In this document: positions 1,240-31,670 of the stretch, one piece after another
How positions within the stretch are numbered: the stretch's first letter is position 1
Layout: every line of letters begins with the position of its first letter
Origin: Phycisphaerae bacterium
GTDB taxonomy: Bacteria; Planctomycetota; Phycisphaerae; UBA1845; UTPLA1
DNA: 64,000 bases
Direction of reading: 5' to 3'
Assembly: GCA_035275405.1 (NCBI GenBank)
Contig: DATEMU010000012.1
Location: 434,001-498,000, forward strand
Translations under genes and position numbers: made by a program
Notes under the pieces: model-generated
Told to the model about the DNA's origin: nothing
Databases searched by the model: none
What the model saw: only the letters and a program-made list of their open reading frames with translations

Positions 1240-1260
1240 GCACCGGCTATTAGCCGGTGC
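1240..1260. repeat. Palindromic repeat, family A (perfect copy), before rpsN
   Basis: The perfect inverted repeat GCACCGGCTA / TAGCCGGTGC has arms of 10 bases around a single T. It is followed by CCACAC, then by the GAGGT ribosome binding site of rpsN. The distance from hairpin end to the rpsN ATG is 17 bases. Related copies stand before rplF, rpsE, rplO and pilC and inside two pilin-like genes. The arms are unlike a terminator because no T-run follows. Confidence 0.85.
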
Positions 1261-1277
1261 CACACGCGAGGTCGTTG

Positions 1278-1463
1278 ATGGCGAGAAAGTGCTGGAGGAT
1301 CAAGGCCGCGGCGAAGCCGAAATTCGCGGTGCGCGGCTATACGCGATGCCTGGTGTGCGGGCGGTCGCGCGCGGTTTACAAGAAGTTCAAGTTGTGCCGG
1401 TTGTGTTTCCGGTCCCTGGCGCTGGAAGGGAAGATCCCCGGCGTACGGAAGGCGAGCTGGTAA
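1278..1463 (+). CDS. rpsN: 30S ribosomal protein S14, zinc-binding type
   Basis: This is the short (61-residue) zinc-binding form of S14, a small-subunit head protein. Four cysteines at residues 24, 27, 40 and 43 (CLVC and CRLC) form the zinc knuckle, and the LCR.CFR and KASW ending is typical of the family. The start is the ATG at 1278, placed by the GAGGT site at 1268-1272. A GTG at 1257 would start inside the palindromic repeat and add residues no S14 has. It lies between rplE and rpsH as expected. Confidence 0.96.
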
Positions 1464-1481
1464 GCGAGGTAGAGAACGAGC

Positions 1482-1880
1482 ATGTGGAGTGACCCGATCG
1501 CCGATTTATTGACCCAGCTTCGGAACGGCCTGCGCAATCATGCGAAGCAGGTGACGCTGCCGTACAGCCGCGTGAAGATCGCCATCTGCAACGTGTTCAA
1601 GGAGGAGGGGTACGTTTCGGAGGTTGAAAAGATTCCGGGCACGGCCGGCCGGGACCTGCTGCGCGTGACGCTTAAGTATGGGCCGCGCGGCGAGCAGGTG
1701 TGGACGCACGTTCGGCGGGAGAGCAAGGTCGGATGCCGCAAGTACGTGGGCGCGAACGAGATTCCGCGGGTGCTCAACGGGATGGGCATCTCGGTGTTGT
1801 CTACGAGCCACGGCGTCATGAGCGATCGGAAGTGCCGGGAGAAGAAGATCGGCGGCGAGTTGATTTGCACGGCGTATTAG
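1482..1880 (+). CDS. rpsH: 30S ribosomal protein S8
   Basis: S8 is a primary 16S rRNA-binding protein and, in E. coli, the translational repressor of the spc operon. The 132-residue product shows DPIADLLTQLRNG at the N terminus, an internal LPYSRVK segment, and the C-terminal STSHGVMSDRKCREKKIGGE block that contacts rRNA helix 21. It starts 18 bases after rpsN. The length is normal. Confidence 0.97.
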   Translation: MWSDPIADLLTQLRNGLRNHAKQVTLPYSRVKIAICNVFKEEGYVSEVEKIPGTAGRDLLRVTLKYGPRGEQVWTHVRRESKVGCRKYVGANEIPRVLNGMGISVLSTSHGVMSDRKCREKKIGGELICTAY

Positions 1881-1881
1881 T

Positions 1882-1900
1882 CACCGGCGATTAGCCGGTA
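1882..1900. repeat. Palindromic repeat, family A (degenerate copy), before rplF
   Basis: CACCGGC at 1882-1888 and GCCGGTA at 1894-1900 form an inverted repeat with one mismatch, followed by CCAGACAGGG where other copies have CCACACAAGG. The AGGG at 1907-1910 is the rplF ribosome binding site. The hairpin ends 18 bases before the rplF ATG, matching the spacing of the other copies. Confidence 0.65.
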
Positions 1901-1918
1901 CCAGACAGGGTAGCGACG

Positions 1919-2509
1919 ATGTCACGTGTTGGAAAAAAACCGATTGCCTTGCCGACCGGGGTCAAGGTGGACGTCAAGGGCAGCGCCGTCAGCGTGACGG
2001 GCCCGAAGGGGACGCTGTCGTGGTCTCATGCGGCCGGGGTCAGCGTATCGCAGGCAGGCGGGTCGAGTTCGATCCAGGTGACGCGGGCGTCGGACAGCTC
2101 CAAGCATCGTGCCCTGCACGGGACGACGCGGGCGTTGATTCAAAACATGATCGTCGGCGTGTCGCAGGGCTACGAAGAGAAGATGGAGATTTACGGGACC
2201 GGTTACGGCTGCTCCGTGTCGGGTCAGACGCTGAATTTGACGGTGGGTTACTCGCACCCGATCGCGCTGCAGATCCCGGCGGGGGTCAAGGTGTCGATTG
2301 ATGTGCCGGCGACGAAAGGCGATGAGACGCCGGCGAAGCTGACGGTCACGGGGATCGACAAGCAGGTGGTGGGTCAGTTCGCGCGTTCGATCAAGGACGC
2401 TCGGCACCCCGAGCCGTACAAGGGCAAGGGCGTTCGTTATGCGGGTGAGCAGATCAAGCGGAAGGCGGGCAAGGCCTTCGCCGGCGCAGGCGGCGGGGCG
2501 GGCGGCTGA
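1919..2509 (+). CDS. rplF: 50S ribosomal protein L6
   Basis: L6 lies near the factor-binding site of the large subunit. The start MSRVGKKPIALP and the duplicated L6 fold are clear, including the C-terminal signature RYAGEQIKRKAGKA (family form: RY.gE.v..K.GK). The protein is 196 residues, about 15-20 longer than usual, because of a Gly/Ala-rich tail after that signature. The ATG at 1919 follows AGGG at 1907-1910. Confidence 0.96.
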   Translation: MSRVGKKPIALPTGVKVDVKGSAVSVTGPKGTLSWSHAAGVSVSQAGGSSSIQVTRASDSSKHRALHGTTRALIQNMIVGVSQGYEEKMEIYGTGYGCSVSGQTLNLTVGYSHPIALQIPAGVKVSIDVPATKGDETPAKLTVTGIDKQVVGQFARSIKDARHPEPYKGKGVRYAGEQIKRKAGKAFAGAGGGAGG

Positions 2510-2526
2510 TCGCCCAAGGTGAGATT

Positions 2527-2895
2527 GTGAACGCAAGAGCATTGAAAAAGACGAGATTGCAGCGGCGCAAGCGACACGTTCGCCATCGGATCTTCGGGAC
2601 GCCGGAGCGGCCGCGACTGTCCGTGAGCCGGAGTCTGCGGCACATCAGCGCGCAGCTGGTGGACGATACGACCGGACGAACGCTTTGCGCGGCGGGGACG
2701 AACACGAAGTCGCTGTCTGGGCAGGTGACGAACGGGGCGAATTGCAAGGCGGCGGCGCTGGTGGGGCAGGTCCTGGCGGAACAGGCGGTGATGCACGGGA
2801 TCAAGCAGGTGGCGTTCGACCGGAATGGGCGGCGGTATCACGGGCGGATCAAGGCGCTGGCGGACGCGGCTCGCAAGACGGGATTGGTATTTTAG
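2527..2895 (+). CDS. rplR: 50S ribosomal protein L18
   Basis: L18 binds 5S rRNA together with L5. The 122-residue product has the basic N terminus (KKTRLQRRKRHVRHRI), GTPERPRLSV, the HISAQLVDD segment, and the C-terminal FDRNGRRYHGRIKALADAAR signature. The start is GTG at 2527, 17 bases after rplF, with AAGGTGAG as the ribosome binding site. Confidence 0.96.
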   Translation: MNARALKKTRLQRRKRHVRHRIFGTPERPRLSVSRSLRHISAQLVDDTTGRTLCAAGTNTKSLSGQVTNGANCKAAALVGQVLAEQAVMHGIKQVAFDRNGRRYHGRIKALADAARKTGLVF

Positions 2896-2920
2896 GCGGA
2901 TGCCTAAAGGGTAAAGCAAT

Positions 2921-2941
2921 GCACCGGCAATTAGCCGGTGC
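2921..2941. repeat. Palindromic repeat, family A, before rpsE
   Basis: GCACCGGCAA and TAGCCGGTGC flank one T, with nine of ten arm positions paired. The tail CACACAAGG carries the AAGG that serves as the rpsE ribosome binding site. There are 20 bases from hairpin end to the rpsE ATG. Confidence 0.8.
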
Positions 2942-2961
2942 CACACAAGGCCGGGTGATTG

Positions 2962-3483
2962 ATGGCGAAAATGGGTAGAGGCCGGCAGCAGCAAAGCGGG
3001 GAAGCGCAAGAAGGCCCGTCGTACGACGACAACGTGGTCAAGGTTTATCGCTGCGCGAAAGTGGTCAAGGGCGGCCGACGGTTCAGCTTTGCGGCGCTGG
3101 TGGTGGTGGGGGATCGGAACGGCCGCGTAGGGTACGGCTACGGCAAGGCCAACGAAGTGCCCTCGGCGGTCGAAAAGGGCCGCAAACAGGCGACGCGGTC
3201 TATGCGACCGGTGCGTCTGAGCGGGTCGACGATTCCGCATACGGTGATGGGGCGGTTCGGATCGAGCAAGGTGCGGCTCCTGCCGGCGAGCGAGGGAACG
3301 GGCGTGATCGCGGGGACGAGCGTTCGGGCGGTGTTGGAGCTGGCGGGCGTCCATGATTGCCTGACGAAGGTGTACGGATCGACGAGCCCCAAGAACCTGG
3401 TTAAGGCGACGTTTGACGCGCTGGAGACGTTGCGGGATCGATCGATGATTGAGCAGTTGCGGGGCGTGAGCATAGCGGGTTAG
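2962..3483 (+). CDS. rpsE: 30S ribosomal protein S5
   Basis: S5 is a fidelity protein of the small subunit. The dsRNA-binding N domain (VVKVYRCAKVVKGGRRFSF, VVGDRNGRVGYGYGKA.EV) and the C domain (LPASEGTGVIAG, VLELAGV.D.LTK.YGS..P.N) are complete in 173 residues. The ATG at 2962 is preferred over the TTG just before it. Downstream, rplO follows directly, so rpmD (L30), which often lies here, is absent. Confidence 0.97.
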   Translation: MAKMGRGRQQQSGEAQEGPSYDDNVVKVYRCAKVVKGGRRFSFAALVVVGDRNGRVGYGYGKANEVPSAVEKGRKQATRSMRPVRLSGSTIPHTVMGRFGSSKVRLLPASEGTGVIAGTSVRAVLELAGVHDCLTKVYGSTSPKNLVKATFDALETLRDRSMIEQLRGVSIAG

Positions 3484-3490
3484 TGACATC

Positions 3491-3516
3491 GGCAGGTCTC
3501 GAAGGCTCGACCTGCC
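3491..3516. repeat. Inverted repeat, family B, rpsE-rplO spacer
   Basis: GGCAGGTC at 3491-3498 and GACCTGCC at 3509-3516 form a perfect 8-base stem with a 10-base loop. It lies directly against the family A palindrome at 3517, so the 70-base spacer is almost entirely two tandem hairpins. A partial copy of the left half (GGCAGGTC.CGA.GGCTCG) occurs at 56345, just after ygfZ. Confidence 0.75.
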
Positions 3517-3537
3517 GCACCGGCTATAAGCCGGTGC
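3517..3537. repeat. Palindromic repeat, family A, before rplO
   Basis: GCACCGGCTA and AAGCCGGTGC flank one T, with nine of ten positions paired. It is followed by CACACAAGAGGA, which contains the rplO ribosome binding site. The hairpin ends 16 bases before the rplO ATG. Confidence 0.8.
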
Positions 3538-3553
3538 CACACAAGAGGACGCG

Positions 3554-27673: not shown

Positions 27674-27694
27674 GCACCGGCTAAGAGCCGGTGC
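27674..27694. repeat. Palindromic repeat, family A, before pilC
   Basis: GCACCGGCTA and GAGCCGGTGC flank one A, with nine of ten positions paired. The tail CCACATAG is near the CCACAC of the ribosomal copies. AGGAG at 27705-27709 and the GTG start at 27718 follow. The spacing hairpin-to-start is 23 bases. Confidence 0.8.
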
Positions 27695-27717
27695 CACATA
27701 GTTCAGGAGCGGTACTC

Positions 27718-29584: not shown

Positions 29585-30148
29585 ATGTCGGCGTCAGACG
29601 CCATGACAATCAGGTATTCGCACCGGCCAGGAGCCGGCGCCCCACGGGCCGGGTTCACCCTGGTGGAGATGGTGACCGTCATGGTGATTCTCGGCGTCGT
29701 GGCCGCGGCGGTGGGGACGCCGACGCTGGCGTATATGGGGTTGGTTCGTTCGCGAGCCGCGTCGGCGCGGATCACGACGGACGTACGGTTCATGCAGCGG
29801 CTGGCGCTGTCGTCGGGGTTGCGGACGTGGGTGGTTCTGAGCACCACGACGAATGACTATCGGTTGTACGTGGAGGACCCGGCGAACCCGGGAAAAGCCG
29901 GGCGTCAGGCGGTGATGCATCCGTTCGATCAAACGACGGCGCCGATTCAATTCGGTTCCGGGGCATATCAGAATGTGTCGATCTCGGCGGTAAACATCAA
30001 CTCGACGAGCGAGATTGAGTTTGACAACTTTGGGGTTCCGTACGATGGGTCCGGGGTCGCGCTGACGGCGATTGGGACGATCAGTCTTTCCAATGGAGTG
30101 ACGATCACGCTGTACCCGGAGACGGGGTTCGTGGAGCGCGCGGGATGA
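29585..30148 (+). CDS. Minor pseudopilin (GspH/FimT-like)
   Basis: The 187-residue product has a long leader, then AGFTLVEMVTVMVILGVVAAA. The later VRFMQRLALSSG segment and a beta-rich C terminus fit GspH/FimT. The ATG at 29585 is set by AGGAG at 29573-29577. Residues 12-20 of the leader (SHRPGAGAP) are encoded by a degenerate family A palindrome. The stop overlaps the next start (ATGA). Confidence 0.85.
   Translation: MSASDAMTIRYSHRPGAGAPRAGFTLVEMVTVMVILGVVAAAVGTPTLAYMGLVRSRAASARITTDVRFMQRLALSSGLRTWVVLSTTTNDYRLYVEDPANPGKAGRQAVMHPFDQTTAPIQFGSGAYQNVSISAVNINSTSEIEFDNFGVPYDGSGVALTAIGTISLSNGVTITLYPETGFVERAG
29620..29640. repeat. Palindromic repeat, family A, inside pseudopilin leader coding sequence
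   Basis: GCACCGGCCA and GAGCCGGCGC flank one G, a degenerate copy. It is read in frame as part of the leader peptide of the GspH-like protein, immediately before the AGFTLVE cleavage region. Confidence 0.65.
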
Positions 30149-30609
30149 ACAGCCACCTTGAAGCTACACCGGCTATTCGCCGGTGCCGCACACGAAACGG
30201 CGTGACGATCATTGAGGTCGTTATGGCGCTGGTGATTCTCTCGGTTGCGCTGCCGCCGATGGTGGCGTCGTTCGCGGATGCGTCGAGGCAGTCCATTCGT
30301 CCGTCCAATTCGACGGTGGCATCGTTGCTGGCGATTGACCGGATGGAAGCGGTTGTCGCGCGGCGGTACCAGGGGACGGATGGGTACGACCAACTGGGCT
30401 CGATGGCCGGGACGGAGCCGGCGGTAACGGGATTTCCACTTTTCTCGCGGACGACGGTCGTGGAGACGGTGGCGGTGGATTATGGAACGGGCGCGATCAC
30501 GACTTCCGGGAGTGATGTGGGTTACAAGCGCGTGCGGGTGAGCGTGGGCTGGAACGGCGGGGCGGAGCGGATGGTGGTCGAGCATTTGTTCGCGGATTTC
30601 CAGTTATGA
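30145..30609 (+). CDS. Minor pseudopilin (GspI/PilV-like)
   Basis: The 154-residue product carries the prepilin motif NGVTIIEVVMALVILSVALP, with Val in place of Phe at position +1. The remainder has SNSTVASLLAIDRMEAVVARRY and a short beta-rich domain, fitting GspI/PilV. The start overlaps the previous stop, and the end overlaps the next start (both ATGA), so four-base overlaps link this series. The leader segment TPAIRRCR is encoded by a family A palindrome. Confidence 0.82.
   Translation: MNSHLEATPAIRRCRTRNGVTIIEVVMALVILSVALPPMVASFADASRQSIRPSNSTVASLLAIDRMEAVVARRYQGTDGYDQLGSMAGTEPAVTGFPLFSRTTVVETVAVDYGTGAITTSGSDVGYKRVRVSVGWNGGAERMVVEHLFADFQL
30166..30186. repeat. Palindromic repeat, family A, inside pseudopilin leader coding sequence
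   Basis: ACACCGGCTA and TCGCCGGTGC flank one T, with arms nearly as in the ribosomal copies, followed by CGCACAC. In the GspI-like frame it gives TPAIRRCR, supplying the positive charges of the prepilin leader. Confidence 0.75.
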
Positions 30610-31208
30610 AGAAAAGAACAGGACCCATGGGACGAATAGGACCTATGACGGGTCGCGGGTTTACGCTAATCGAACTCGTTGTATGCATCGTGGTCGGCTC
30701 GATCATCAGCGGAACGGCGGGGATGCTGCTGTGGACGGCTTCGTCGCAGCGTGGGGACGTCGCGGCGCGCGGGGAGCTGGCTGATGAGGGCGCCATGGCG
30801 ATGGAAGTCATGGCGCGGTACGTGCGGGAAATCGAACAAGGCGATGATTGCCCCGCTAATCCTACTCCGTGTCTCAATGGGAATGCGCAGATCAGCACGG
30901 CGTCCGCGAGTCAGATCAGCTTCGGAAACACCGGGTTTCGTTACGTTTCCGGGGGCGGGATGGTGGAGATGACGACGGACAACGGGACGACATGGCGCCC
31001 GTTGGTGAAGGATGTGTCGGGGTTCGGCCTGGCCTATTACGAGCGCACCGGTTTGGCCATGATGCCGCTGCCGCTGGGGGCGGTGGATCGAGAGGATGTC
31101 CGGCGCGTTCAGATTACCCTGGATCTCGCGCGAGGCACGCAGCGCGTCAAACTGAGAACTTCCCTTTATTTGCGGAGTTTCATGGATGAGGTCACGACCG
31201 ATCCCTAG
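30606..31208 (+). CDS. Minor pseudopilin (GspJ/PilW-like)
   Basis: The 200-residue product has leader MKKRTGPMGRIGPMTGRG, then FTLIELVVCIVVGSIISG. The LWTASSQRGDVAARGELADEGAMAMEVMARYVREIEQ region and long beta-rich C domain resemble GspJ/PilW. The leader is largely encoded by a second repeat family (GGACCCATGGGAC..ATAGGACCTATG). It overlaps its neighbours by 4 and 23 bases. Confidence 0.83.
   Translation: MKKRTGPMGRIGPMTGRGFTLIELVVCIVVGSIISGTAGMLLWTASSQRGDVAARGELADEGAMAMEVMARYVREIEQGDDCPANPTPCLNGNAQISTASASQISFGNTGFRYVSGGGMVEMTTDNGTTWRPLVKDVSGFGLAYYERTGLAMMPLPLGAVDREDVRRVQITLDLARGTQRVKLRTSLYLRSFMDEVTTDP
30621..30650. repeat. Palindromic repeat, family D (copy 1), inside pseudopilin leader
   Basis: GGACCCATGGGACGAATAGG followed by ACCTATG. 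The near-palindrome ATAGGACCTAT also occurs twice at 31639-31670 together with GGACCCA. It is read in frame as TGPMGRIGPMTG in the GspJ-like leader. Confidence 0.7.
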
Positions 31209-31638: not shown

Positions 31639-31670
31639 ATAGGACCTATTGGTGGACCCATAGGACCTAT
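31639..31670. repeat. Palindromic repeat, family D (copy 2), before the PilM-PilN gene
   Basis: Two ATAGGACCTAT near-palindromes flank TGGTGGACCC. It fills most of the 52-base spacer before the next start codon at 31688. It is the same family as the copy at 30621. Confidence 0.7.

Follow-up and report, generated by a model that had tools for sequence, protein, structure and literature searches.

Dispersed Junction Repeats Read in Frame in the Leaders of Three Adjacent Prepilin-Like Genes of a Phycisphaerae Bacterium

Introduction

Two groups of short repeats provide the closest precedents for the elements described here. Tagged REPs are defined by a GTAG or GTGG lying 0-2 nt 5' of a hairpin that has a basal stem of 7-20 fully paired nucleotides and a loop of 2-5 nt, and they are high-copy and largely extragenic (PMC6006769). 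REPs within ORFs, their N-termini included, have already been described, as have REPs in repair polymerases, with the caution that many of the N-terminal cases are misannotated starts (Di Nocera et al. 2013, PMC3733652). The Rickettsia palindromic elements (Ogata et al. 2002), in the account that cites them (PMC3733652), are palindromes in coding genes that are in frame and translated.

The locus to which these precedents are compared is in a Phycisphaerae bacterium with a 5.29 Mb genome in 19 contigs, within a stretch of 64,000 nucleotides (C12:434001-498000) that is called the window below. An earlier note on the window had proposed that dispersed palindromes encode part of the leaders of three consecutive prepilin-like proteins, and our analysis followed that proposal into the rest of the genome and into related genomes.

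The Operon and Its Repeats

The three genes belong to a type II secretion/pilus operon that comprises genes for an ATPase, a gspF-like protein, four prepilin-like proteins (G, H, I and J), a gspK-like protein, which had no match in a Pfam scan, and a secretin. The gspF-like protein is 65-70% identical to its named relatives, which come from MAGs of Planctomycetota and Phycisphaerae. In each of gspH, gspI and gspJ the Pfam scan placed the N_methyl domain (PF07963, the type IV pilin-like N-terminal methylation/cleavage motif) after the repeat, above the cut-off in gspH and gspJ and on either side of it in gspI (20.5 bits in one scan and 22.6 bits in the genome scan, with the cut-off at 21.2). 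The leaders translate as MSASDAMTIRYSHRPGAGAPRAG before FTLVE in gspH, MNSHLEATPAIRRCRTRNG before VTIIE in gspI and MKKRTGPMGRIGPMTGRG before FTLIE in gspJ (Table 1).

Table 1. Prepilin-like genes and repeat elements; positions are those of the window unless a genome and contig are named.
Feature	Position	Strand	Details
gspH-like prepilin gene	29585..30148	+	leader 23 aa; N_methyl PF07963 29.1 bits; AGGAG 7 nt before ATG
gspI-like prepilin gene	30145..30609	+	N_methyl; ATG overlaps gspH stop (ATGA)
gspJ-like prepilin gene	30606..31208	+	N_methyl 27.7 bits; ATG overlaps gspI stop
Family A, gspE-gspF-like spacer	27675..27698	-	exact match
Family A in gspH leader (diverged)	29621..29644	-	read as HRPGAGAP; 2 mismatches over tag + stem; hairpin without tag 29621-29639, one stem mismatch
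Family A in gspI leader	30167..30190	-	read as TPAIRRCR; 1 tag mismatch; hairpin without tag 30167-30185, perfect 7-bp stem
Family D in gspJ leader	30621..30646	+	read as GPM GRI GPM; 2 mismatches to GGNCCYATNGGNCCYATNGGNCCYAT
Family D, spacer 3' of gspK-like gene	31639..31670	+	two exact ATAGGACCTAT sites
A-type DNA at relatives' prepilin 5' ends	G014 C1:3125619; G010 C76:18648; G010 C63:866

Family A, written with its flank on the minus strand, is TGTGG-CACCGGC-N5-GCCGGTG. A search of the bacterium's own genome with TGTGGCACCGGC-N5-GCCGGTG at ≤2 mismatches produced 51 matches, which represent 49 elements (two were read on both strands), versus none for the reversed pattern used as a control. 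TGTGG abuts the stem in 26 exact copies, and the stems vary compensatorily on both sides, e.g., CACAGGC/GCCTGTG and CACCGGT/ACCGGTG. Within the bacterium's own taxonomic family, 14 of 17 genomes carry A, with up to 426 matches in a single genome. The copies in the leaders of gspH and gspI, where the DNA includes CACCGGCCAGGAGCCGGCG and CACCGGCTATTCGCCGGTG, respectively, have GGGG and GCGG as their tags, and both are in frame and yield the peptides that had been reported for them.

The repeat in gspJ, family D, was also described in the earlier note as a palindrome, and here only the claim of membership in an in-frame dispersed family held: D consists of three tandem 9-mers (NGGNCCNAT), which in the gspJ leader are AGGACCCAT-GGGACGAAT-AGGACCTAT. 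The 27-bp pattern gave 24 overlapping matches in the genome, at about a dozen loci, versus one for the control, and the family also occurs in two relatives (G003 and G008). In at least three copies the TAG of the element itself ends the upstream reading frame, which marks D as an element of the spacer after a stop codon rather than a palindrome. D is recognisable only as the triple 9-mer; a search for it as a variable-gap pattern returned nothing, and as an 11-mer at one mismatch it did no better than the control. Both families are short dispersed junction elements, and A is a GTGG-tagged REP.

Placement at Gene Junctions

Most of the 49 A elements lie outside genes and within ~60 bp of a gene end (31), while 9 are farther away, 4 are inside reading frames, 3 are in prepilin leaders and 2 are at ambiguous 5' ends, tallies that were counted by hand on genes called by a simple codon-usage script and are approximate. 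A cluster of A copies occupies short spacers between co-directional genes near the start of the window (1241-3541; C12:431632-437541), one of them just 5' of what reads in translation as a ribosomal protein S14-like frame.

This preference has consequences for how unusual the leader placement is. For three elements in prepilin leaders, random placement in the genome gives P≈2e-6, placement limited to non-coding DNA (assumed to be 8%) gives P≈0.003, and placement at gene junctions (4,500 genes assumed) gives P≈0.008, which rises to 0.06 when the operon is counted once. Since A elements favour gene junctions, their location in leaders is partly a consequence of where they land, and the excess under the junction null is modest. 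Moreover, the three adjacent leader cases are not independent, since the same operon carries a further copy of A upstream of gspF and one of D downstream of the gspK-like gene; the argument that three such cases are unlikely to be chance stands for membership in the families, but for the placement it is weakened accordingly. The placement is best explained by a preference for junctions acting on genes that overlap and have tolerant leaders.

The reading that we favour, at a probability of roughly 70%, is that A and D are junction elements, that copies falling in frame at overlapping genes are translated, and that they persist where the leader is tolerant and cleaved. The usual landing sites of both families would be the DNA immediately behind a stop codon or the gap between co-directional genes, and because of the ATGA overlaps of gspH with gspI and of gspI with gspJ, the DNA past the upstream stop doubles as the leader of the downstream gene. 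Elements that arrived there in frame would be translated, and they may have persisted because neither the length nor the sequence of a prepilin leader is constrained and prepilin peptidase removes it. Near-neutrality of the inserts and actual cleavage of these leaders are presumed in this scheme. So is mobility by transposition: a search around Y1 transposase genes (RAYT, tnpA-REP type; 5 matches in the own genome and 30 loci in relatives) found no A copy nearby, other than one next to a partial Y1 match in G010.

A different explanation is that the elements are retained at junctions as RNA or DNA regulators, acting on mRNA stability or on the translational coupling of overlapping cistrons, with translation as a side effect. 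REPs are thought to function as RNA elements (PMC3733652), most A elements do sit at gene ends, and a position just past a stop codon would suit coupling or a role at the 3' end. However, the three junctions fold unremarkably (z of -0.23, -1.69 and +0.09), the gspI hairpin is absent from the minimum-energy structure, and the orthologous junctions manage without an element, all of which makes regulation an improbable, albeit the strongest, competitor to junction insertion.

Start Codons and Translation of the Repeats

Given the precedent of Di Nocera et al. (2013), in which many N-terminal REPs proved to be misannotated starts, the repeats might be 5' untranslated DNA with the true starts downstream. 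In gspJ there is something to be said for this, as in-frame ATGs follow at 30627 and 30645, of which the latter, favoured by the codon-usage gene caller, would leave the leader MTGRG; some doubt therefore attaches to the gspJ start. Its upstream start nevertheless gives the N-terminus MKKR, typical of leaders, and overlaps the gspI stop in an arrangement shared by several orthologues. The gspI ATGA overlap with the gspH stop likewise recurs in orthologues (e.g., in G015, G008, G013 and G011), which puts the gspI start upstream of its repeat, and no start codon occurs 3' of the repeat in that leader. In gspH the stretch from the repeat to the cleavage site has none, and the ATG has the upstream AGGAG listed in Table 1. 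The C13 prepilin described below also lacks a start codon after its repeats. Comparative evidence of this kind supports starts upstream of the repeats, and untranslated repeats are a very unlikely explanation for the set as a whole.

Insertion and the Orthologous Leaders

The gspH orthologues have 45-58% identity in 12 genomes of the same family, and in a thirteenth genome a truncated copy matches at 49%. When the leaders were aligned, as the earlier note had advised, those of the orthologues proved to differ in sequence and to be devoid of the repeat. From the gspH stop to the gspI cleavage site the distance is 53 bp here versus 11-29 bp in most relatives (20, 23, 26 and 29 in several), and the alignment against four relatives resolves the gspI difference as a single, clean 30-nt insertion. 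Three relatives of one genus have distances of 53-57 bp and 18-aa leaders with no repeat, which means that a long leader is not in itself a sign of insertion. For gspJ the distance of 50 bp lies inside the range of most relatives (39-72 bp), so the leader is not lengthened and D cannot be demonstrated there as an added insert. Support for insertion is thus good in gspI and in the C13 prepilin; in gspH insertion is likely, and in gspJ the matter is undecided. In the orthologous operon of one relative, an inverted A-type pair lies in the gspG-gspH spacer (L218 5749-5800).

The frame or orientation of the element differs among the three leaders with A copies, as expected from insertion and not from selection of a peptide. 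It had been suggested that the repeats supply positive charge, and although each does add at least one Arg, selection for charge or some other leader function is the least credible explanation, for the encoded peptides are unrelated and missing from orthologues, whose short leaders are more charge-dense (the 9-aa MTRRARKQG is already +4), such that the repeat dilutes charge.

Other Prepilin Leaders and Other Translated Copies

A survey of prepilin leaders throughout the genome, also advised at the outset, was made by reading every leader among 40 N_methyl matches at E ≤1, and it revealed a fourth repeat-bearing leader, on another contig (G000 C13:25196). This A-bearing leader has 38 aa, almost wholly repeat-derived, from three tandem A-type copies, two of them degenerate; it starts just after the upstream stop codon, and no start codon lies downstream of the A copies. 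In two REP-rich relatives, A-type elements occur 5' of, or in, long possible prepilin leaders with uncertain starts (Table 1). At one prepilin 5' end (L195, G010 C76:18500-19200) there is a REP pair in which the tag makes ATGTGG, a possible start (MWHRRPACDPTGETPVP...).

Cleaved leaders are not the only hosts. A is translated in a polymerase of the ImuB/impB-mucB family (PF00817; L005 1498-1521, G000 C3:428608-428631), in agreement with the published REPs in repair polymerases, and the loop that contains it is ~3-4 residues longer than that of the closest relatives (WW plus 6-7 residues before RDYY). The repeats are translated in leaders, as had been proposed, but their translation inside uncleaved proteins as well means that cleavage is not the sole route to tolerance. 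In-frame A copies also occur within two more proteins, an O-antigen-ligase-like membrane protein and one with FG-GAP repeats (L012 1501-1524 and L017 1501-1524). A diverged A (L209 1548-1571, G000 C8:199647-199670) has a GTG that is a possible amidohydrolase start, and as such would encode an n-region ahead of a hydrophobic, signal-like stretch (VPSAISRCGPFRFFFGIVIGILLVSTHFGC). A palindrome resembling A in a Ser/Thr kinase (C15:593962) brought no gain in length relative to PknB, may be chance and carries no weight here.

A broader and more tentative idea, which we consider possible but doubtful, is that cleaved N-terminal sorting sequences, i.e., prepilin leaders and perhaps the n-regions of lipoprotein or Sec signals, are general landing pads in this planctomycete family. 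If so, junction repeats turned coding would be a recurrent source of new leaders.

Comparison with Known Elements

The locus neatly illustrates a phenomenon that is already known, and is not a new system. It offers a concrete comparative case in which repeats of a mobile type have become coding in a part of a protein that can be dispensed with, and with it a suggested reason, namely that overlapping genes put junction DNA into a removable leader, and with the caution that such leader peptides should not be read as conserved or functional.

As in the Rickettsia elements, insofar as the citing account describes them, a palindromic repeat is in frame and translated in a coding gene, the 30-nt insertion in gspI being the example here. 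The taxon is a different one, and the inserts here are ~24-30 bp and lie at gene junctions or in leaders. The Rickettsia elements are longer.

The likeness to the GTAG/GTGG-tagged REPs, which have already been reported from this phylum, is closer. Like them, family A has GTGG immediately next to the base of its hairpin, whose 7-bp stem is paired throughout and whose loop has 5 nt, and many dispersed copies that are mostly at gene ends (31 of the 49), with some within ORFs. It differs from the RAYT-associated REPs in that no RAYT neighbour was found here. In-frame N-terminal REPs have been published before, and what is new is the placement in leaders that are probably cleaved, with starts backed by comparison; a limited literature search found no description of palindromic repeats in prepilin leaders, and the cited REP literature does not include that placement.
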